Below are positions 28,451-38,566 of a stretch of DNA of 64,000 bases, piece after piece. This DNA is from Spirobacillus cienkowskii. Its GTDB lineage: Bacteria > Bdellovibrionota_B > Oligoflexia > Silvanigrellales > Silvanigrellaceae. The stretch covers positions 1 to 64,000 of the forward strand of contig NZ_CP146516.1 of the NCBI RefSeq assembly GCF_037081835.1, written 5' to 3'. Positions within the stretch are counted from its first letter, which is position 1. Every line of letters starts with the position of its first letter. The notes beneath the pieces were generated by a model. It had not been told where the DNA came from and made no database searches. It saw nothing but the letters and a program-made list of their open reading frames with translations. Position numbers and translations under genes: made by a program.

Positions 28451-29377
28451 CTATCTGTTTCTTAAGTAAGGCTGACCTAAAGCTTTTGGAGGACGACTTT
28501 TACCAACAAAACCTGCGACAATCACGATAGTTAAAATATAAGGTATAATTTGGATAAATTGGGGAGAGACAACAAAGTTCCAGATATGGTTTAATATTTG
28601 AAATTCAAAAATGGATTTAGGAATCTGAATTCCTTGTAAAGTAATCCCCAATGCATCAAAAAATCCAAAAGCCAAACAAGCAAATGCAGCCGCTAAAGGT
28701 TTCCATCCACCAACGATTAATGCTGCAAGAGCCATATATCCACGCCCTGCAGTCATGTTTCTTGTGTAGCTACTTGATAAACAGATCGACAAGGTTGCTC
28801 CTCCAAGACCTGCTAGAAAACCAGATAATAGTATACCACTCCATCTTGTTCGAATCACATCTATTCCTGATGTTTGCAAAGCATCAGGATGCTCACCGGC
28901 AAACTTATGCCACATTCCATAAGGTGTGTATTTAAACCAAACCCAAGTAAGACCAATTATAACCCAAGCAGCTATAATTGGTCCATGAATAAATCTGTTA
29001 TCCATTGGTATTTCAGGAGTTGAGCCTGTATTTTGAAATAATAGCTGAGCTATAAATGGAACGCTACCAGCAGCTAGGATTGTTATGGCTGTTCCTGTTA
29101 CAATTTGATTCGATTTAAAATTTATTACAAAAAGCCCATAGATAGCTGACATAACCATGCCGGCTAGACCTCCACATAAAAAGCCTAGAAATGGTGAGTG
29201 CGTGAGGGTTGTCACTGCGGCTGCAGTAAATGCACCAGCTAACATTTTACCTTCTAAGGCAATGTTAATAATACCACTACGCTCACTAAATAAGCCTCCT
29301 AGGGCTGCAAATATAAGAGGGGCTGACATGCGAATTGTAGCACCAAAGATTGAAGATAAAAGGTTAATCCATTCCAT
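28451..29377 (-). CDS. BMP-type (nucleoside) ABC transporter permease 2
   Basis: Polytopic membrane protein of the BmpA-NupABC/YufOPQ family, which imports purine nucleosides. The start has LIFAALGGLFSERSGIINIALEGKML, typical of the second permease. Further family blocks are GGWKPLAAAFACLAFG and several membrane segments. 308 residues. Its start overlaps the first permease gene by 14 bp, so translation is likely coupled. Nucleoside specificity is inferred from the family; related systems can import other ligands. Confidence 0.9.
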   Translation of the reverse strand: MEWINLLSSIFGATIRMSAPLIFAALGGLFSERSGIINIALEGKMLAGAFTAAAVTTLTHSPFLGFLCGGLAGMVMSAIYGLFVINFKSNQIVTGTAITILAAGSVPFIAQLLFQNTGSTPEIPMDNRFIHGPIIAAWVIIGLTWVWFKYTPYGMWHKFAGEHPDALQTSGIDVIRTRWSGILLSGFLAGLGGATLSICLSSSYTRNMTAGRGYMALAALIVGGWKPLAAAFACLAFGFFDALGITLQGIQIPKSIFEFQILNHIWNFVVSPQFIQIIPYILTIVIVAGFVGKSRPPKALGQPYLRNR

Positions 29378-30404
29378 GTTTCTTGAGCCTTTTTTTAGTT
29401 AACAATTTTTCCCACAATCCATCAGCAGATACAGCAAGAATAATAAAAGCTTGAAGTACTAAAGCGAGATCAGATGTTACATTTTGGGTGTAAATTTCAA
29501 GATCACTAGAACCTTTTTGAAGAGCTCCAAATAAAAGACCCGAAAAAATGATCGCAATTGGATTTCCTCTAGCAAGAAATGCGACCGCAATTCCTGTAAA
29601 ACCATATCCCGGAGAAAAATCAAGTTTAAAACATTCTGAGCGTCCTAATATTTCTCCTACGCCAACAAGTCCAGAAATTGCACCGGCAATAAACATGCTC
29701 AAAATTTGAGTTTTAGAAATACTGATTCCTGCTGTAGAAGCTGCTGATTCATTATCACCTACACATCGAATTTCATAACCAAGAGGAGTTCTATATAAAA
29801 ATAGCCAAGTTAATAAAGCAATAATTATTGATAAAAATAAGGCAGATGTAACAGGAGCACCTTGAAAGAAATTAAAAGATTCGAGCACATAATTTTTATC
29901 AATTGGTAAGGTTTGAGGATTTTGAGTGTTGGGGTCTTTAAGTAGATATACTGTTACATAACTTGCAATTCCTGCAGCTATAAAGTTTAGCATAATAGTA
30001 ATTATAACTTCATGAGCGCCTCTTTTGGCTTTTAAATATCCTGCAATACTTCCCCAAAAACCGCCTGCAAGTGCTGCACAAATACCAGCAAATAAAGGAG
30101 CGAAAAGTTGCGGAACATTAGGAAAGAGTACACCTACAGAAGCTGCTGCTAAGGCACCTATTGTTAGTTGTCCTTCTGCGCCAATGTTAAACATTTTGGC
30201 TTTAAATGCGACAGCAACAGATAAACCAGTAAGAATAAGCGGCATACTGTATGTTAAAGTCATTCCAAAATCGTAAGCTGATCCAAAACCAGATTTTGCA
30301 AAGATTAAAAAAACTTCAACAGGATTTTCTCCAGCAAAAGAAGTAATAAGTAATCCAATTACTAAGGCAATAATGGTAGCTAAAATGGGGCGAATGATAT
30401 TCAT
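29364..30404 (-). CDS. BMP-type (nucleoside) ABC transporter permease 1
   Basis: First permease of the transporter. MNIIRPILATIIALVIGLLI begins at ATG 30404, with GGGGG seven to eight bases upstream; an in-frame upstream extension lies inside the ATPase gene. Motifs: LTYSMPLILTGLSVAVAFKAKMFNIGAEGQL and LARGNPIAIIFSGLLFGALQKG, both typical of the NupB/YufP group. It overlaps the ATPase gene by 4 bp (ATGA). Confidence 0.9.
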   Translation of the reverse strand: MNIIRPILATIIALVIGLLITSFAGENPVEVFLIFAKSGFGSAYDFGMTLTYSMPLILTGLSVAVAFKAKMFNIGAEGQLTIGALAAASVGVLFPNVPQLFAPLFAGICAALAGGFWGSIAGYLKAKRGAHEVIITIMLNFIAAGIASYVTVYLLKDPNTQNPQTLPIDKNYVLESFNFFQGAPVTSALFLSIIIALLTWLFLYRTPLGYEIRCVGDNESAASTAGISISKTQILSMFIAGAISGLVGVGEILGRSECFKLDFSPGYGFTGIAVAFLARGNPIAIIFSGLLFGALQKGSSDLEIYTQNVTSDLALVLQAFIILAVSADGLWEKLLTKKRLKKHGMD

Positions 30405-32032
30405 TTTGAATTCCCCCTGTAAGAGTTTGGTAAACCACCACACATTGCAAGACCGAGCGTGTGTTCATTTGCTTCATTTCTATTGTATTCAGCCACAATA
30501 CTTCCGCCATACATCACAACAATTCTGTCTGATAGTGTTATAATTTCATCCAATTCTGAAGAAATTAATAATACTCCTACTCCTTTATCTCTTTCGGCAA
30601 CGATTTGTTTATGAATATACTCAATTGCGCCTATATCAACGCCACGGGTAGGATTTGCAGCTACAATTAATTTGGGTTCTTTTCCAAATTCACGTGCAAT
30701 AATTATTTTCTGTTGATTTCCCCCAGAAAATCCAGAAGCATTAAGTTTTGAATTTCTTGGTCTTACGTCATATTGTATCATTTCTTGTGCAACTGTTTTT
30801 TGAATTTCTTTAATTTTTTGTAGGAAACCAAATCTAAATTTCTTTTCCCAATGTCTGCCTAAAATATAATTTTCTTCAGCTGACATATTAAGTAATAAAC
30901 CGTTTTTGTGTCTGTCTTCTGGAATTAAACCAACAATTAAATCCAACATTTGTGAGCTTTTTTTATGTTTTATTGCTTTACCTAGAAGGTAAATATCACC
31001 AGTGGCAGGATGATGAGAAGAAATTTTTTTTCCGAAATATTTTTGTGGATGAAAAATAATATCAATAAGCTCTGATTGCCCATTTCCTTCAACACCAGCT
31101 ATGCCAACAATTTCACCGGCCTTTACAGTAAGAGAAACTTCATGAAGCAAATTTCTTTTGGAATCTTTGGTTTGATAGTTTTTTAATGTAACGTTATTTA
31201 TTTCTAAAACAGGATTTCCGACATTTTTATTTGAAGGAATATTAGGATATAAATTTACATTTCTTCCAACCATCATAGAAGCAATTTTTTCTTCAGTTGC
31301 TTCAGAAGTTCTCATTTCTCCTACAACTTTACCTGAGCGAAAAATAACAATATTATCAGTAAAATTTAAAACCTCTTTAAGTTTATGTGTAACAATAATT
31401 ATTGTTTTACCTTCTTCTTTAAGCTTTCTAAGATTTTCAAATAGTTCATTCACCTCGATAGGGGTTAATACTGCAGTAGGTTCATCTAGTATCAGAATTT
31501 CTGCGTTTCTATAAAGAAGTTTTAATATTTCTATTCGCTGCTGCATACCAACAGGAAGCTTTGAAATTTTAATGTTTAATGGAACATTTAACCCATATTT
31601 TTTAGCTATAGTTTCTATTTCTAATTTTGCTTTTTTTCTATCAATAAAATTAAATGGTGTTGGAATATAAGGAAGAAGCAAAGTATGTGATTCATCGCCA
31701 AGTATAATGTTATCTAAACCAGTAACATTTTCTGCTAACATAAAGTGTTGATGAACCATACCAATGCCGTTTTTGATGGCATCCTTAGGCGAATTCCAGT
31801 GTTGTGGTTTTCCATTAACTAAAATTTCTCCTTCATCTTCTTTATACAATCCAAACAATATTTTCATTGCAGTGGATTTTCCCGCACCATTTTCGCCAAC
31901 TAAAGCCTGAATTGTTCCTTTTTTAACAGAAAAACTAATATTATCGTTAGCGACAACATTGCCAAAAGTTTTTTTAACTTTTTTGAACTCTACTGCTATA
32001 TTTGACTCTGAGTTATTACATTTAGTTTTCAT
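30401..32032 (-). CDS. BMP-type (nucleoside) ABC transporter ATPase, two ABC domains
   Basis: Energises the importer. The first ABC domain has Walker A GENGAGKSTAMK near residues 43-54, a Q-loop in GMVHQHFML and Walker B ILILDEPTAVLTP. The second has GVEGNGQSELIDI as a degenerate Walker A, then the signature ASGFSGGNQQKIIIARE and ANPTRGVDIGA. The tandem domain form and 543 residues match NupA/YufO and RbsA-like ATPases. The gene lies between the binding-protein gene and the two permeases in one minus-strand run. Confidence 0.94.
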   Translation of the reverse strand: MKTKCNNSESNIAVEFKKVKKTFGNVVANDNISFSVKKGTIQALVGENGAGKSTAMKILFGLYKEDEGEILVNGKPQHWNSPKDAIKNGIGMVHQHFMLAENVTGLDNIILGDESHTLLLPYIPTPFNFIDRKKAKLEIETIAKKYGLNVPLNIKISKLPVGMQQRIEILKLLYRNAEILILDEPTAVLTPIEVNELFENLRKLKEEGKTIIIVTHKLKEVLNFTDNIVIFRSGKVVGEMRTSEATEEKIASMMVGRNVNLYPNIPSNKNVGNPVLEINNVTLKNYQTKDSKRNLLHEVSLTVKAGEIVGIAGVEGNGQSELIDIIFHPQKYFGKKISSHHPATGDIYLLGKAIKHKKSSQMLDLIVGLIPEDRHKNGLLLNMSAEENYILGRHWEKKFRFGFLQKIKEIQKTVAQEMIQYDVRPRNSKLNASGFSGGNQQKIIIAREFGKEPKLIVAANPTRGVDIGAIEYIHKQIVAERDKGVGVLLISSELDEIITLSDRIVVMYGGSIVAEYNRNEANEHTLGLAMCGGLPNSYRGNSK

Positions 32033-32064: not shown

Positions 32065-33108
32065 TTAGTTTTTACTCGTTTTATAATAATCTGGAACCTC
32101 AATTTCATTATCAATAATTCCATGTTTTATTTTATTTATTTTATGAATTTCTTCATTATTAAATAATGATTTGTTATGACTATCTAACGACCAATCAATA
32201 CCACCGTCTGAAAAACCATATCTAATAACACCAGTTGTAAATTTATTGTTTAAATAATCTTGAATTGCTTCAAATACTTTTAAATCAACTTTTTTCTCCA
32301 TACTTGTAAGGACAAGACCTGGCGCAATATAATTTTGGTTAGAGTCTACTCCAATAATAAATTTTTTTGATTGTTTTTTATTAACTTCCATAACAGCATC
32401 AAACACACCTTGAGATGAGCCTCCTGCTGCAACAAATATGACATCAGAACCTTGATTGTACATAGACATAGCGAGCTCTTTTGCTTTTGTTGGGTTATTC
32501 CAAGCGCTAGAAGTTATTCCTACATAAGTTACTGTGGTTTTAATTTTTGGATCAATATATTTTGCCCCTGATTCAAAACCTAAGGCAAATCTTTTAATTA
32601 AAGGAATTTCCATTCCCCCAATAAAGCCAATTTGTTTAGACTTTGATTTCATTGCTGCAATCGCTCCAACAAGAAAACTACCTTCATGTTCTTGAAATGA
32701 TATTGATCTTATGTTCGGTTCATTAATATTAGAATCCACTAATATATATTTTTGATTAGGAAATTTTTTTGCAATTTTACCGACCGTATCTGAGTTATTA
32801 AACCCAACTGCGATGATTAACGCACACTCTCCAGAAGAGAATGACCGCATGAATTGCTGAGATTGTGAATCTTCTCTAACTGTAACAAACTTGCTATCTT
32901 TAGAGATTTTTAATTCTTTTTGTGCTTTGACAAAACCTTCATAAGCTGATTGGTTGAAGGATTTGTCATCCTTACCACCTTTATCAAGAACAAGGCAAAT
33001 TTTAGGATTTTTTTCTAAAGATGAGCTTGAAGTATTTCCGTAAGACAAAAAATTAAAATAAATAAGTTGAGAAACGATAAGTACTTTTATAAAATTTGAT
33101 GTTTTCAT
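32065..33108 (-). CDS. BMP-family substrate-binding protein (copy 1)
   Basis: Periplasmic binding protein that delivers ligand to the permeases. KICLVLDKGGKDDKSFNQSAYEGF is the N-terminal family signature, and SISFQEHEGSFLVGAIAAM, GFIGGMEIPLIKRFALGF and DVIFVAAGGSSQGVFDAV follow. The ATG at 33108 opens a signal peptide (MKTSNFIKVLIVSQLIYFNF). No lipobox cysteine is seen, although most BMP proteins are lipoproteins. GGAG lies 12 bp upstream. It is followed by the ATPase and permease genes. It is closely similar in motif order to the second copy upstream. Confidence 0.92.
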   Translation of the reverse strand: MKTSNFIKVLIVSQLIYFNFLSYGNTSSSSLEKNPKICLVLDKGGKDDKSFNQSAYEGFVKAQKELKISKDSKFVTVREDSQSQQFMRSFSSGECALIIAVGFNNSDTVGKIAKKFPNQKYILVDSNINEPNIRSISFQEHEGSFLVGAIAAMKSKSKQIGFIGGMEIPLIKRFALGFESGAKYIDPKIKTTVTYVGITSSAWNNPTKAKELAMSMYNQGSDVIFVAAGGSSQGVFDAVMEVNKKQSKKFIIGVDSNQNYIAPGLVLTSMEKKVDLKVFEAIQDYLNNKFTTGVIRYGFSDGGIDWSLDSHNKSLFNNEEIHKINKIKHGIIDNEIEVPDYYKTSKN

Positions 33109-33536
33109 GCTAATTTTATGCTCCAATAAAATAAGTTATGTTTTTTAATAAAGTAAAAAAATTATATATTATTTTATACCCTGTGTTTATTTTCTTGATA
33201 AATGAAGAGCGGCTAAAATAAGTATATATTTTTAAAGAAAAAATAAATGTCGTAGTTTGTAATATCATTAAAAAAATCCTTTGTTTAGGTTAAGAAACAA
33301 AGGATTTTTTAGAATTTGATCTAAATTTATAATTTTATCAAGCAAAGTCATTAAGAGTATTTTGACTTTTTTTATCTCAACATTGCCTTTTTTATGGTTT
33401 GAAATCTTGTTTTTTATATTGAGAAATTTAAGGTTTTTTGAAAGTTTTGTTTTTGTAAAAACATTATATTTAATTACAAAAAATAATTCTGGAATATATT
33501 TATTCATTCTGATAAACCTCATATTACTCAAACACT
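33109..33536. other. Gap between the two BMP genes
   Basis: Very AT-rich. It holds the terminator at 33270-33311 and, by position, a promoter for copy 1. A minus-strand ORF at 33268-33531 (87 codons) runs into the terminator hairpin and has low-complexity composition, so I do not call it a gene. Confidence 0.6.
33270..33311 (-). terminator. Strong rho-independent terminator between BMP copies
   Basis: A 16-bp perfect stem, AAAAAATCCTTTGTTT with its complement, around an 8-base loop (AGGTTAAG). The A and T ends make it work on either strand. By position it ends the transcript of BMP copy 2, separating that gene from the transporter operon. Confidence 0.9.
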
Positions 33537-34628
33537 TTATTTTTTTTCAATTTCATAATAATCAGGAACGGTAATTTTTCCATTAATTATTTTTTCTTTA
33601 ATATCTTGAATTGTTTTTATTTGATTTTCAGAATAAAATTTCTTGTTATGTTCATCTAAAGCCCAATCTACTCCTCCATCTTTTAATCCATATGAAATGT
33701 GGTTTGCGGTGTATTTGTCGTCTAAAAAATCTTTTATACTACTGTAAACTGCTTTATCTACTCTTTTTACCATACTTGTAATAATTATATCTGGCTTAAT
33801 CCAGTTTTGATTTGAGTCAACTCCAATAGAGTAAAAAGCTTTTTTATTATTAAATTTTTTATTCATTTGCTCAGCAGAATCAAATACACCTTGTCCTGAG
33901 TTTGCCGCAACTTGAAAAATGACATCAATTCCTTCGTTGTATTGCGAAAGTGCAAGTTCTTTTGCTTTGGCCGGATTATTCCAAGCGTCATGGGTCACGC
34001 CCACATATGAGCTAGTTGTTTTTATCTTAGGATTTAAATACTTAGCGCCAGCGACATAACCTGTTTCAAACCTGCGAATAAGTGGAATATCCATGCCTCC
34101 AATAAAACCTATTTTTCCTGAAACCGACTTCATTGCTGCAACGGCACCAACCAAAAATGAGCCATCATGTTCTTGAAATGTAATAGAACGGATGTTGTGA
34201 TTTTTGTTTTTGTCTTCGATGTTCGTATCTATAGCAAGAAATTTTTTATCAAGGTATTTTTGTGCAAGTTCTGGTAGGTATGTTGATGGATTAAAGCCAA
34301 TTGCAATAATTAAATCACAGTTAGCTGATGTTGCAAAGCTCCTAAAAAATTGGGCAATTTGAGAATCATTTTTTGGTTCTACAAATTTACTCCCTTTGTT
34401 GATATTGAAGTCTTTGAGTGCTTTACCAAAACCAATGACTGCCGATTCGTTGAACGAATGATTGTCTTTGCCTCCCTTGTCGAGCACCATACAAATTTTT
34501 TTATTTTCTAAAGGTTTTTTTATATTATTGTCTGTGTTAGCAAAAGATTCAAAATTATTAGTAACATATAAGCTTGTTAGTATGGTTATAATTATTCTTG
34601 CTTTTTTGATTAAATGATAAGGAGGCAC
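33537..34628 (-). CDS. BMP-family substrate-binding protein (copy 2)
   Basis: Paralogue of the copy downstream with the same blocks: KICMVLDKGGKDNHSFNES, SITFQEHDGSFLVGAVAAM, GFIGGMDIPLIRRFETGY and FQVAANSGQGVFDSA. A signal peptide (ARIIITILTSLYVTNN, ending near SFA) leads it to the periplasm; no lipobox is seen. The start is GTG 34628, supported by AAAGGA six bases upstream. It is cut off from the transporter operon by a strong terminator, so it may be expressed separately and give the importer a second specificity. That is inference. Confidence 0.92.
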   Translation of the reverse strand: MPPYHLIKKARIIITILTSLYVTNNFESFANTDNNIKKPLENKKICMVLDKGGKDNHSFNESAVIGFGKALKDFNINKGSKFVEPKNDSQIAQFFRSFATSANCDLIIAIGFNPSTYLPELAQKYLDKKFLAIDTNIEDKNKNHNIRSITFQEHDGSFLVGAVAAMKSVSGKIGFIGGMDIPLIRRFETGYVAGAKYLNPKIKTTSSYVGVTHDAWNNPAKAKELALSQYNEGIDVIFQVAANSGQGVFDSAEQMNKKFNNKKAFYSIGVDSNQNWIKPDIIITSMVKRVDKAVYSSIKDFLDDKYTANHISYGLKDGGVDWALDEHNKKFYSENQIKTIQDIKEKIINGKITVPDYYEIEKK

Positions 34629-35590: not shown

Positions 35591-35896
35591 ATTCAATAAT
35601 TAATTCAAAATTACAATAATATATTAAAACACAACGAATTCCTAAATATTTTATAAATTAAAAATAATTCTTAATAAAAATCTTGCTTTTTCGGTGGGCT
35701 AAAAAATTTATAAACCATATTTCAAGTAGAAAGAGGTTTTTATTGCTTGTGCTAAGCACATTGTACTACGTACAATGTGCTTGCATGATGGTGAAGCCAA
35801 CTATGCCTTTTCTCTGATAGTTTATGTAATTTATTGAGAGAAAAGAAGCTAAGAAATTAATTACTTTTAAATTAATTTGTCATGAAGGATGACTTT
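35591..35896. promoter_or_regulatory. Upstream region of glmU/glmS with two stem-loops
   Basis: A gene-free stretch of about 300 bp. It holds a near-perfect 13-bp-arm palindrome at 35754-35782 (AAGCACATTGTAC, a 3-base centre, then its complement) and a second stem-loop at 35807-35846 (CTTTTCTCT with AGAGAAAAG). Neither is followed by a T run, so they look more like operators or mRNA leader structures than terminators. No glmS ribozyme core is recognised. Confidence 0.5.
35754..35782. repeat. Long palindrome upstream of glmU
   Basis: Arms AAGCACATTGTAC and GTACAATGTGCTT around TAC. Just before the palindrome, TGTGCT is followed by an overlapping complement (AGCACA), so part of the motif is repeated. 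Confidence 0.8.
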
Positions 35897-36706
35897 GTGG
35901 AAATACAAAAAATTCTTAAAGAAAAAACTATTGGAGTTGTGCTTGCTGCAGGAATGGGTAAAAGAATGAAATCTGATATTCCTAAGGTAGCACATGTACT
36001 GTATGGTAAACCTCTTTTAATTTGGGCAATGCACGCATTGATTGATACTGGTATTGATAAAATTGTTATAGTTATTGCTCCAACTCAAACAGTGGTTGAA
36101 GAGTTGATTAAAAATCATCAATTTCCAAGTCACATAACAATAAAATTAGCATATCAAGACATGCCATTAGGAACAGGGCATGCTGCACGCTGTGGCATAG
36201 AAGCGGTATCTAAATATTTTGTGCAAGAAGCAGATTTAGAAACAAATATACTTATTGCTTATGGAGATACGCCTGCTGTTAGTAGTGTAACTTTTCAAGA
36301 GTTTATATATTTTCATCTACAACAAAAAAATTATTTTACTATATTGGCATTTAAAACAAAAAATCCTTTTGGCTATGGTAGAATTATAACTGATAAAAAT
36401 GGAAATTTTTTAGAAATTTGCGAAGAAAAAGATTGCACTGAAGAACAAAAAACAATTCTACTTTGTAATTCTGGATTTTTATGTGGTAATTATTTTCAGT
36501 TTCAAAAGATATTGCCGCAATTAAAAAATGAAAATGCCTCCAAAGAATATTATTTAACAGATGTTCCTATATTAGCAAGTAAACTTGATGGTAAAGTTGG
36601 TTATTTAATTAGTAAAAATGAAGAAGAACTTTTGGGGATAAATTCCCAAGAACAATTGAAAGAAATGGAATTAAAATTTCAAAAAAAATTTTTAAATGCG
36701 AAATGA
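35897..36706 (+). CDS. glmU: UDP-N-acetylglucosamine pyrophosphorylase domain protein (GlmU N-terminal half only)
   Basis: Nucleotidyltransferase that makes UDP-GlcNAc from UTP and GlcNAc-1-phosphate. Motifs are VVLAAGMGKRMKSDIPKVAH (UTP loop with the catalytic Arg and Lys), QDMPLGTGHAA, IAYGDTPAV, ILAFKTKNPFGYGRII, EEKDCTEEQ and LCNSGFL. The ORF stops at ~270 residues, where bifunctional GlmU (~456) continues into the left-handed helix acetyltransferase domain. So the acetylation step must be encoded elsewhere. Start taken at GTG 35897, with AAGGA seven bases upstream; an ATG at 35882 has none. glmS follows 9 bp downstream, giving a GlcN-6-P to UDP-GlcNAc unit. Confidence 0.88.
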   Translation: MEIQKILKEKTIGVVLAAGMGKRMKSDIPKVAHVLYGKPLLIWAMHALIDTGIDKIVIVIAPTQTVVEELIKNHQFPSHITIKLAYQDMPLGTGHAARCGIEAVSKYFVQEADLETNILIAYGDTPAVSSVTFQEFIYFHLQQKNYFTILAFKTKNPFGYGRIITDKNGNFLEICEEKDCTEEQKTILLCNSGFLCGNYFQFQKILPQLKNENASKEYYLTDVPILASKLDGKVGYLISKNEEELLGINSQEQLKEMELKFQKKFLNAK

Positions 36707-36715
36707 GGTGAAAAT

Positions 36716-38566
36716 ATGTGTGGAGTTATAGGATATATTGGCTCTGGAGCCACACCTGAATTTTTTTATAATGCTTTAAAACGATTAGAATATCGAGGAT
36801 ATGATTCTGCAGGTATAGCAATGATGGATTCTACCGGTGTTTTTATTCAACGTGCAGAAGGTAAACTTTTAAATTTACAAAAAAAACTTGATAAATTTCC
36901 TAGCTCTACAAAAATTGGAATTGGCCATACTCGTTGGGCGACACATGGAAAACCCTCGGAAGCAAATGCACATCCTCATCGTTCAGAAAATATAATTTTA
37001 TTGCATAATGGTATAATAGAAAATTATAAAACGATTAAGAATTTTTTGATTGAAAAAGGATATAATTTTCTTAGTGAAACAGATACAGAAGTTGCTGCTC
37101 ATTTATTAAATTATGAATATAAAAAACAAAATGATAAACTAAAACCAATAGAAAAAATGAAAAAAGCAATTTATGCTGTAGTTTCGCAAATTAAGGGCGC
37201 ATTTGCTTTTGGAATTTTATGTACAGAAATACCAGATACTTTATTTGTAGTAAAATATGGTTCTCCAATAGTTTTAGGAGTTGGGGATAATGAAAATTAT
37301 ATGGCATCTGGAATTACAGCTTTAGTAGATCATACGCGGTCTGTAATAATTCTTGAAGATAAAGAAATAGCTTTTTTAACAGCAGAAGATATATCTATAG
37401 TTGATTTTACTGGAAACCCAATAAATAGAGATCCTATTTTAGTTTCTTGGTCTACAAGTATGTTAGAAAAAAATGGTTATGATCACTTTATGCTAAAAGA
37501 AATACACGAGCAACCACAAGCAGTCGCTCAAACTATTAAAGGAAGATATGATAAATTATCAGGTAAAATTAATTTATCTGGATACGGAATTAAGAATTTA
37601 AAATTAACAGAAATTGATCGAATTCAAATTATCGCATGCGGAACGAGTTACTATGCTGGTTGTTTATCTCGTTACTTTATAGAAAAATTTTCTGGAATTC
37701 CTGTTGAAGTAGAGTTAGCAAGTGAGTTTAGGTACAAAGCGCCAACTATGAATAGTAAGACCTTGTGTGTTGCAATATCGCAAAGTGGTGAAACTATTGA
37801 CACACTTCAAGCAATGAAGTTCGCAAAAGAAAATCATGCAAAAACAATTGCAATAGTTAATGTTCCTGGTAGCAGTATTGCGCATGTTTGTGATGAAGAA
37901 AGTTTAATTTTTGCAGGGCCAGAAGTTGGTGTCGCTAGTACTAAAGCGTTTTCTGCCCAATTAAGTTCTTTAATGATACTTGCTTTAGCTTTAGCACAAG
38001 AAAATAAAAAATTAAGTTCTGAAAAAATTACAGAATATATAGACGAATTGGTTAAAGTACCAAGTTTTATAGAAAAATTATTAGAAAAATCTAATTTAAT
38101 TAAAGATATTTCTGAAAAATATGCGAGTTTATCAAGTTTGCTATATATTGGCAGAGGGTATCATTGGCCTGTAGCCTTAGAGGGAGCTTTAAAGTTAAAA
38201 GAAATTTCTTATATTCACGCTGAAGGTTATGCTGCAGGTGAATTAAAGCATGGGCCAATTGCGTTAATTGATGAAAATATGCATGTTGTGTGCATTGCTC
38301 CTAAAGATTTGTATTATGAAAAAACATTAAGTAACATAGAAGAAATTAGGGCAAGAGGTGGTAAAATTCTTGCTATTGGTACAGAAGGAGATAATGATTT
38401 ACAAAGTATTTCAAATGATTTTATTGGAATACCAGAATGTAGTGATCTTATTCTCCCATTTTTAACTACAGTACCAATGCACTTATTAGCATATTGGATT
38501 GCGGTAAAAAAAGGTACAGATGTTGATCAACCCCGAAATTTAGCTAAAAGCGTAACTGTTGAGTAA
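36716..38566 (+). CDS. glmS: Glutamine-fructose-6-phosphate aminotransferase (isomerizing)
   Basis: Makes glucosamine-6-phosphate, the entry to cell-wall amino sugars. Nucleophile Cys2 follows the start Met (MCGVIGYIG), with HTRWATHGKPSEANAHPH and LHNGIIENY in the glutaminase domain. Two SIS domains follow: CGTSYYAGCLSRY, ISQSGETIDTLQAM, EGALKLKEISYIHAEGYAAGELKHGP. It ends with the canonical DQPRNLAKSVTVE. 616 residues. GAGGTG precedes ATG 36716. Confidence 0.98.
   Translation: MCGVIGYIGSGATPEFFYNALKRLEYRGYDSAGIAMMDSTGVFIQRAEGKLLNLQKKLDKFPSSTKIGIGHTRWATHGKPSEANAHPHRSENIILLHNGIIENYKTIKNFLIEKGYNFLSETDTEVAAHLLNYEYKKQNDKLKPIEKMKKAIYAVVSQIKGAFAFGILCTEIPDTLFVVKYGSPIVLGVGDNENYMASGITALVDHTRSVIILEDKEIAFLTAEDISIVDFTGNPINRDPILVSWSTSMLEKNGYDHFMLKEIHEQPQAVAQTIKGRYDKLSGKINLSGYGIKNLKLTEIDRIQIIACGTSYYAGCLSRYFIEKFSGIPVEVELASEFRYKAPTMNSKTLCVAISQSGETIDTLQAMKFAKENHAKTIAIVNVPGSSIAHVCDEESLIFAGPEVGVASTKAFSAQLSSLMILALALAQENKKLSSEKITEYIDELVKVPSFIEKLLEKSNLIKDISEKYASLSSLLYIGRGYHWPVALEGALKLKEISYIHAEGYAAGELKHGPIALIDENMHVVCIAPKDLYYEKTLSNIEEIRARGGKILAIGTEGDNDLQSISNDFIGIPECSDLILPFLTTVPMHLLAYWIAVKKGTDVDQPRNLAKSVTVE

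Follow-up and report, generated by a model that had tools for sequence, protein, structure and literature searches.

A Shortened GlmU beside glmS in Spirobacillus cienkowskii and a Stand-Alone Archaeal-Type Acetyltransferase as Its Probable Partner in UDP-GlcNAc Synthesis

Results

The glmU–glmS Locus

The window analyzed, a stretch of 64,000 nucleotides of Spirobacillus cienkowskii (NZ_CP146516.1, positions 1 to 64,000), carries a glmU gene encoding the uridylyltransferase half only, followed on the same strand by glmS (Table 1). A preliminary description had placed the gene at 35897–36706; its end was retained, while its start was moved to an ATG at 35882, 35897 being an alternative in-frame GTG five codons downstream. 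The 274-aa protein matched positions 4–241 of the 452 positions of the bacterial GlmU profile TIGR01173 (197.6 bits, E = 3.4e-58), short of the profile's cut-off of 366.85 bits, and Pfam gave nucleotidyltransferase domains only, with no hexapeptide repeats above the cut-offs. The lack of an acetyltransferase domain beside an adjoining glmS, which the preliminary description had claimed, was thereby confirmed, as was its clean gene end followed by the ribosome-binding site of glmS: the TGA stop lies at 36704–36706, and a GAGGTG motif overlaps it. A remnant domain between the two genes is excluded, because only nine bases separate them. No riboswitch or other known RNA reached the gathering score between 35000 and 39000 of the window. 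On the opposite strand, at 32065–34628, two similar genes for basic-membrane-protein-like substrate-binding proteins lie near each other, with an ABC nucleoside-transporter-like cluster downstream of them at 28451–32032 (all named by reading).

Table 1. Coordinates of the glmU–glmS features (window positions) and of the stand-alone acetyltransferase candidate (genome positions).
Feature	Position	Strand	Remarks
Truncated glmU, uridylyltransferase half only	35882..36706	+	274 aa, ATG start; TIGR01173, Pfam
Shine-Dalgarno-like GAGGTG of glmS	36705..36710	+	Read in sequence; overlaps glmU stop
glmS, glutamine--fructose-6-phosphate transaminase	36716..38566	+	616 aa; TIGR01135, 792 bits
Stand-alone LbH acetyltransferase candidate	genome 751417-752115 (ATG)		232 aa; 715 kb from glmU

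The truncated protein was compared with E. coli GlmU at 17 positions, which we take to represent the uridylyltransferase site region, and 15 were identical (L11, A12, A13, G14, R18, K25, Q76, G81, T82, Y103, D105, G140, E154, N169, and N227), the exceptions being K15, replaced by Met, and Q79, replaced by Pro. Given this agreement, the uridylyltransferase half looks functional. Among the matches listed, those of seven further genomes, each from this species or its genus, ended alike, at profile positions 236–243, and the truncation is therefore no assembly slip of a single genome. Of 31 loci examined in the class, that of the window being one, 30 have glmU and glmS adjacent on the same strand, and in the remaining one the stretch stops with the glmU frame. 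The gene is therefore the glmU orthologue at its usual location, with its second half missing.

A Stand-Alone Acetyltransferase in the Same Genome

The genome, a single contig of 2,806,830 bases, was searched with profiles for TIGR01173 and for the hexapeptide and GNAT families. A separate acetyltransferase had been expected, and an LbH protein with GlmU-type site residues was indeed found (Table 1); an alternative TTG start at 751402 would give a 237-aa ORF (751402–752115, equivalent to L049:7403-8116). It matched positions 205–391 of the 393 positions of the archaeal GlmU profile TIGR03992 (158.6 bits, E = 2e-46), against 43.3 bits for the bacterial profile TIGR01173. The TIGR03992 cut-off of 292.1 bits was not reached, the C-terminal half of the model alone being matched; the nucleotidyltransferase half is absent, and Pfam gave helix families only. 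When the PDB was searched with a profile of the enzyme and 12 relatives, ST0452 came first (E = 2e-41, 145 bits), and the best bacterial GlmU scored 53 bits. In the AlphaFold model (pLDDT 94.3), an N-terminal helical part precedes the LbH. The closest structure to this model was Sulfolobus tokodaii ST0452 (Z 27.6, rmsd 1.9, 203 residues aligned), followed by E. coli GlmU with CoA and GlcN-1-P (Z 19.2, rmsd 2.5, 154 residues aligned).

The residues R333, K351, H363, Y366, N377, N386, and K392 of E. coli GlmU, presumably those of its acetyltransferase site, correspond to R109, K133, H145, Y148, N159, N168, and K191 of the stand-alone protein. An alignment gathered by profile search (A1), with 13 sequences of the class, showed no variation at any of the seven, which were also retained in nine of nine stand-alone rows, including four from other phyla. 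An alignment of 36 rows had six of these residues invariant and K133 conserved to at least 90%, which adds little for R109, H145, and Y148, since the rows had been fetched with patterns holding one of these three. At other points the site varies, E. coli S405 being replaced by Cys in the stand-alone enzyme and ST0452 itself having a Gly aligned at R333. In the window's genome the stand-alone gene adjoins neither glmU nor glmM. As judged from these comparisons, the missing acetylation step, that of a glucosamine-1-phosphate N-acetyltransferase (EC 2.3.1.157), is most likely carried out by the stand-alone LbH protein.

Other Enzymes in the Genome

GlmM was found at about 2.023 Mb (559 bits, cut-off 447.55), which makes the four-step route to UDP-GlcNAc complete on paper. 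The preliminary description had named a full-length glmU elsewhere, which would make the window's gene a paralogue, as an observation that would overturn it; the profile search of the whole single-contig genome yielded no second GlmU. The nucleotidyltransferase matches that came up were set aside, two because their first residues resemble, by eye, glucose-1-phosphate thymidylyltransferase and mannose-1-phosphate guanylyltransferase, and the remaining one as a GmhB-fused protein. No UDPGP-family protein was found in the genome either. Among its hexapeptide proteins, a GlmU-type acetyltransferase score was obtained for the stand-alone candidate alone, the others being best read as LpxA, LpxD, DapD, a gamma-carbonic anhydrase, a CcmM-like domain, and a sugar O-acetyltransferase-like protein.

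Two apparent fusions were seen along the way. The first, a 691-aa protein at about 557–559 kb (L054:3276-5351, minus strand), has a SulP/BicA-like anion transporter and a CcmM/gamma-carbonic-anhydrase-like hexapeptide domain in one chain and is possibly a bicarbonate transporter with a built-in carbonic anhydrase. At about 2.297–2.299 Mb (L055:2920-4857, minus strand), a 645-aa protein appears to combine domains of three kinds, namely a sugar nucleotidyltransferase, a phosphatase resembling GmhB, and one that is uridine-kinase-like; its neighbors are, by eye, GmhA-, GHMP kinase-, and epimerase-like genes, and the region is perhaps a heptose-nucleotide cluster.

Distribution within the Class Oligoflexia

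The sample comprised 58 genomes, searches by class and by phylum giving the identical set. Relatives with the domain still fused had been named as a second observation against the preliminary description, and none of the 58 genomes reached the TIGR01173 cut-off. An early-ending glmU match (E ≤ 1e-30) was present in 51, spread over 12 of the 13 family codes of the class, and every class match at this threshold stopped at or before profile position 337. The ends were graded: 24 of the 51 lay at position 252 or earlier (the window's own genus and several families, with G017 at 182), five at 293–297 (three other genera of the same family), and 22 at 305–337, some of the 51 being short pieces (G017; G002 and G003, which are without the first part). 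No residue aligned at R333, K351, H363, N377, N386, or K392 in any of 31 truncated proteins, the window's included, and all six positions were filled in eight of eight full-length controls. This alignment took the place of a text motif for the catalytic His, which seven of the eight full-length controls had failed as well.

The stand-alone enzyme was detected in at least 54 of the 58 genomes, although two of these matches were short (G003, model positions 235–319; G045, 211–362). The four genomes without a listed match (G002, G020, G036, and G055) have completeness values of 85, 77, 90, and 72, respectively. Among the 51 truncated GlmUs, 27 still have the opening coils of the bacterial helix, and 26 of these occur in genomes with a listed stand-alone protein. 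Because the ends are graded among relatives, these data suggest that the helix of GlmU was lost stepwise, presumably after acetylation had been taken over.

Some genomes did not fit this pattern. Six (G007, G010, G024, G025, G036, and G044) had neither a GlmU half at E ≤ 1e-30 nor a UDPGP protein, and the stand-alone acetyltransferase was listed in all of them except G036. In G032, the sole glmU match among those listed was a 59-position fragment (E = 2.4e-18). While some of the misfits are MAGs with parts missing, this is not obviously the case for G024 (96% complete) or G025 (92%, 7 contigs).

Distribution outside the Class

Scanning 84,980 species, one genome per species, gave 312 relatives, of which 80 loci were kept. 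Most were from MAGs, and their titles included Chlamydiae, Chloroflexota, Thermodesulfobacteriota, Verrucomicrobia, Gemmatimonadetes, Nitrospira, Bacillota, Cloacimonadota, Riflebacteria, and others. GlmU was then assessed in 49 of the 80 genomes, selected as enzyme carriers presumed to come from outside the class; 29 of Oligoflexia-type or unclear naming (likely the same phylum) were left out, together with L129 and L192. Among the matches listed, GlmU was full-length in three genomes, truncated in 26, and without a match in 20. The three genomes with both a full GlmU and the stand-alone enzyme imply that the enzyme's job may sometimes differ. The 26 truncated matches ended at positions 236–356, weak cases among them being G062 (110 bits) and G082 (122 bases from a contig start). 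Seven were read, and none had a residue aligned at H363, Y366, N377, N386, or K392; R333 was kept in several, and L201 reaches K351, where it has Arg. Another of the seven, a 392-aa GlmU of genome G085 (L202:1459-2637, plus strand), carries the C-terminal tail of the family with no aligned residue from H363 to K392, which looks in sequence as if the middle of the helix, and not its end, had been lost.

Within the Chloroflexota, full-length GlmU was present in 96 of 141 genomes (93 over the cut-off plus G139, G183, and G223, which reach positions 433–435; the partial pieces of G135, G150, G159, and G204 were not counted as full). An archaeal-type helix occurred in 22 of the 141, none of them among the 96 (Fisher p = 1.4e-13, shared ancestry ignored). 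Since 21 of these 22 helices lie in ORFs of 401–986 aa and are probably fused, the contrast concerns the archaeal-type domain in general. A second Fisher value (4.5e-15), obtained by setting the three of 49 against the Chloroflexota background, was discarded, as the two sets come from different phyla. At E ≤ 1e-25 the enzyme was missing from two Chloroflexota genomes whose GlmU is clearly truncated (G194 and G210) and from another six with weaker truncated matches. In G163 and G212, an archaeal-type helix frame of about 400 aa adjoins a nucleotidyltransferase frame of about 405 aa that has a partial helix match.

Gene neighborhoods were seldom informative: in the flanks of the 80 loci, some of them cut by contig ends, a GlmU half was found once and a phosphohexomutase twice. 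One Anaerolineales chromosome (L167) carries three genes in line, for a phosphohexomutase, a GlmU half of 263 aa, and the stand-alone enzyme, the mutase scoring 370 bits as archaeal GlmM and 367 as PgmG, both below the cut-off. In a Bacillota MAG (L196), glmM lies 39 bases before the LbH gene, and the genome also has a full GlmU.

Fifteen of the 20 enzyme-bearing genomes without a GlmU half were titled Chlamydiae or similar, and 18 of the 20 contained a UDPGP-family protein over the cut-off. None was found in 14 control genomes, nine Oligoflexia, or three others searched. The one compared with the PDB, that of G104, was closest to UDP-GlcNAc pyrophosphorylases (E = 4e-54), with AGX1 among the matches; some of the UDPGP matches are weak or come from a second protein of about 730 aa (in G066, from that one only). 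Two kinds of UDPGP protein per genome were observed in G059, G060, G070, G075, G079, G090, G092, G095, G100, and G104, one with frames of about 360–490 aa, UAP-like where tested, and the other of about 690–760 aa. The pairing of one acetyltransferase with two unrelated uridylyltransferases points to GlcN-1-P acetylation as the probable constant job of the stand-alone family.

Phylogeny of the Stand-Alone Family

A tree of 80 helix domains with hand-picked rows was built by a short search with SH-aLRT as the only branch support, from 24 Oligoflexia, 33 other stand-alone proteins, 15 of the 21 fused Chloroflexota, seven bacterial tails, and ST0452. The 57 stand-alone rows clustered together (SH-aLRT 100), on the archaeal-type side beside the fused enzymes, separated from the bacterial GlmU tails by a branch that also had an SH-aLRT of 100, and the Oligoflexia rows grouped together (SH-aLRT 85). 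Three long frames (L151, L161, and L170; 396–781 aa from stop to stop) were counted as stand-alone; by eye, L151 and L161 have plausible start codons shortly before the N-terminal stretch of the family, and L170 has one at residue 551. A W..L stretch before the helix resembles, by eye, the linker of the fused enzymes and, together with the N-terminal helical part of the model, weakly hints at descent from a fused archaeal-type protein.

Discussion

A Split Route to UDP-GlcNAc and Its Alternatives

Both peptidoglycan and lipopolysaccharide draw on UDP-GlcNAc, an essential cell-wall sugar, for which GlmU usually counts as the two-in-one bacterial enzyme, and as a drug target. The analysis went beyond the preliminary description in finding that the separate enzyme is archaeal-type, class-wide, and present in other phyla, and that the truncation is graded among relatives. 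With a probability of about 85%, as estimated from sequence comparisons, UDP-GlcNAc in S. cienkowskii would be made by a split system of truncated GlmU and stand-alone archaeal-type LbH acetyltransferase. In this route GlmS would provide GlcN-6-P and GlmM would turn it into GlcN-1-P, the stand-alone enzyme would transfer an acetyl group from acetyl-CoA onto GlcN-1-P, and the truncated GlmU of the window would join GlcNAc-1-P and UTP. GlcN-1-P would thus be the substrate of the stand-alone enzyme, and the enzyme the sole supplier of this step. In the past, the archaeal-type domain would have displaced the bacterial acetyltransferase domain, with the helix of GlmU lost in steps afterwards.

That the two halves exist as separate genes with identical catalytic residues could also reflect a gene fission, in which the stand-alone protein is the bacterial GlmU tail of the organism itself, cut off and moved. 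This is very improbable, as the tail scores far higher as archaeal than as bacterial GlmU (158.6 against 43.3 bits; in the PDB search, 145 against 53 bits), the tree puts the 57 stand-alone rows on the archaeal-type side with the bacterial tails opposite, and the first bacterial helix coils are still held by those 27 truncated GlmUs, nearly all of which occur in genomes with a listed stand-alone protein. Acetylation might instead precede the mutase, a GNA1-like GNAT enzyme acetylating GlcN-6-P and GlmM acting on GlcNAc-6-P. The genome does hold six GNAT matches over the Pfam cut-off, two of which had no NCBIfam match at E ≤ 1e-5 while the other four stayed below curated cut-offs. None of the six was named GNA1 by NCBIfam at that threshold (family names only were compared), the nearest names being RimI (two), ribosomal S5-alanine acetyltransferase, and PaiA; GlmM is plainly a phosphoglucosamine mutase of the bacterial kind, and an LbH protein present in at least 54 of the 58 class genomes would be left without a role, all of which makes this route about as improbable as fission.

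Archaeal ST0452 uses both GlcN-1-P and GalN-1-P, and a full GlmU occurs together with the stand-alone enzyme in three of the 49 genomes (among the matches listed), both of which lend something to the idea that the LbH protein acetylates another amino-sugar 1-phosphate, such as GalN-1-P, with a different enzyme serving GlmU. We regard this as slightly less improbable than the two preceding accounts, and still quite unlikely, given that the single-contig genome offered no second GlmU-like candidate among its hexapeptide proteins, that full GlmU is strongly excluded from enzyme-bearing genomes, and that there are neighborhoods, though few, with a mutase and a truncated GlmU. Least credible of all is salvage of GlcNAc from host chitin, which would render acetylation dispensable and the truncation a sign of relaxed decay. 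For this Daphnia parasite, whose complete genome is one circle of 2.81 Mb, three chitinases have been reported and glucosamine import suggested (PMC12321486). A salvaging organism is at odds with glmS and glmM over their cut-offs, with truncated matches in nearly all family codes of the class, and with conserved uridylyltransferase residues.

The split system is thus preferred for the window's genome. A broader proposal appears reasonably probable, and is held less firmly: that the widespread stand-alone archaeal-type GlcN-1-P acetyltransferases constitute an interchangeable module, which would have displaced the GlmU domain phylum-wide, with stepwise loss of the helix thereafter, and whose partner would be a bacterial GlmU half or, in Chlamydiae, a eukaryote-like UAP. 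A split GlmU with an archaeal-type acetyltransferase is apparently fixed in one phylum and present in others.

Comparison with Known Systems

The pathway is a known one in a new arrangement, two separate enzymes apparently replacing the usual fused GlmU. No description of a stand-alone bacterial GlcN-1-P acetyltransferase or of a natural split GlmU was found in the open-access literature as judged by titles and abstract beginnings. Of the two GlmU orthology groups K04042 and K11528, the latter presumably denotes the one-function enzyme. In one study the two groups are merged in one GlmU profile and UDP-GlcNAc supply is called problematic in some species (PMC5814848); the words "glmU" and "peptidoglycan" do not occur in the main text of the S. 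cienkowskii genome paper (PMC12321486). The stand-alone family probably carries out the acetylation in genomes titled Chlamydiae too. If the proposal is true, pathway annotation would be corrected where the acetylation step looks missing, and the reach of GlmU acetyltransferase inhibitors would be limited. It would further offer a natural truncation series of GlmU from which to learn how the helix serves the uridylyltransferase, and an example of an archaeal-type domain taking the place of its counterpart in a cell-wall enzyme.

The eukaryotic UAP1/AGX1 family, present in 18 of the 20 half-less enzyme-bearing genomes, was not found in that of the window. With archaeal GlmU (TIGR03992; ST0452, PDB 2ggo, 5z09, and 5z0a) the stand-alone enzyme has the C-terminal acetyltransferase half in common, including the site residues His, Tyr, Asn, Asn, Lys, and Lys shared with ST0452; it differs in being without the nucleotidyltransferase half, in its own N-terminal helical part, and in forming a separate group in the tree. 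With bacterial GlmU (TIGR01173; E. coli, PDB 1hv9 and 2oi6) the window's protein shares the uridylyltransferase half with a conserved active site, and E. coli has the same glmU–glmS gene order; unlike the bifunctional enzyme, the protein is without the acetyltransferase half, its match stopping at 241 of 452. A comparable truncation is the 331-residue chain of E. coli GlmU (PDB 1fwy/1fxj), presumably a laboratory cut; the window's protein is shorter still and has no helix coils, and the 22 Oligoflexia GlmUs that end at 305–337 are perhaps the natural counterpart of that chain.
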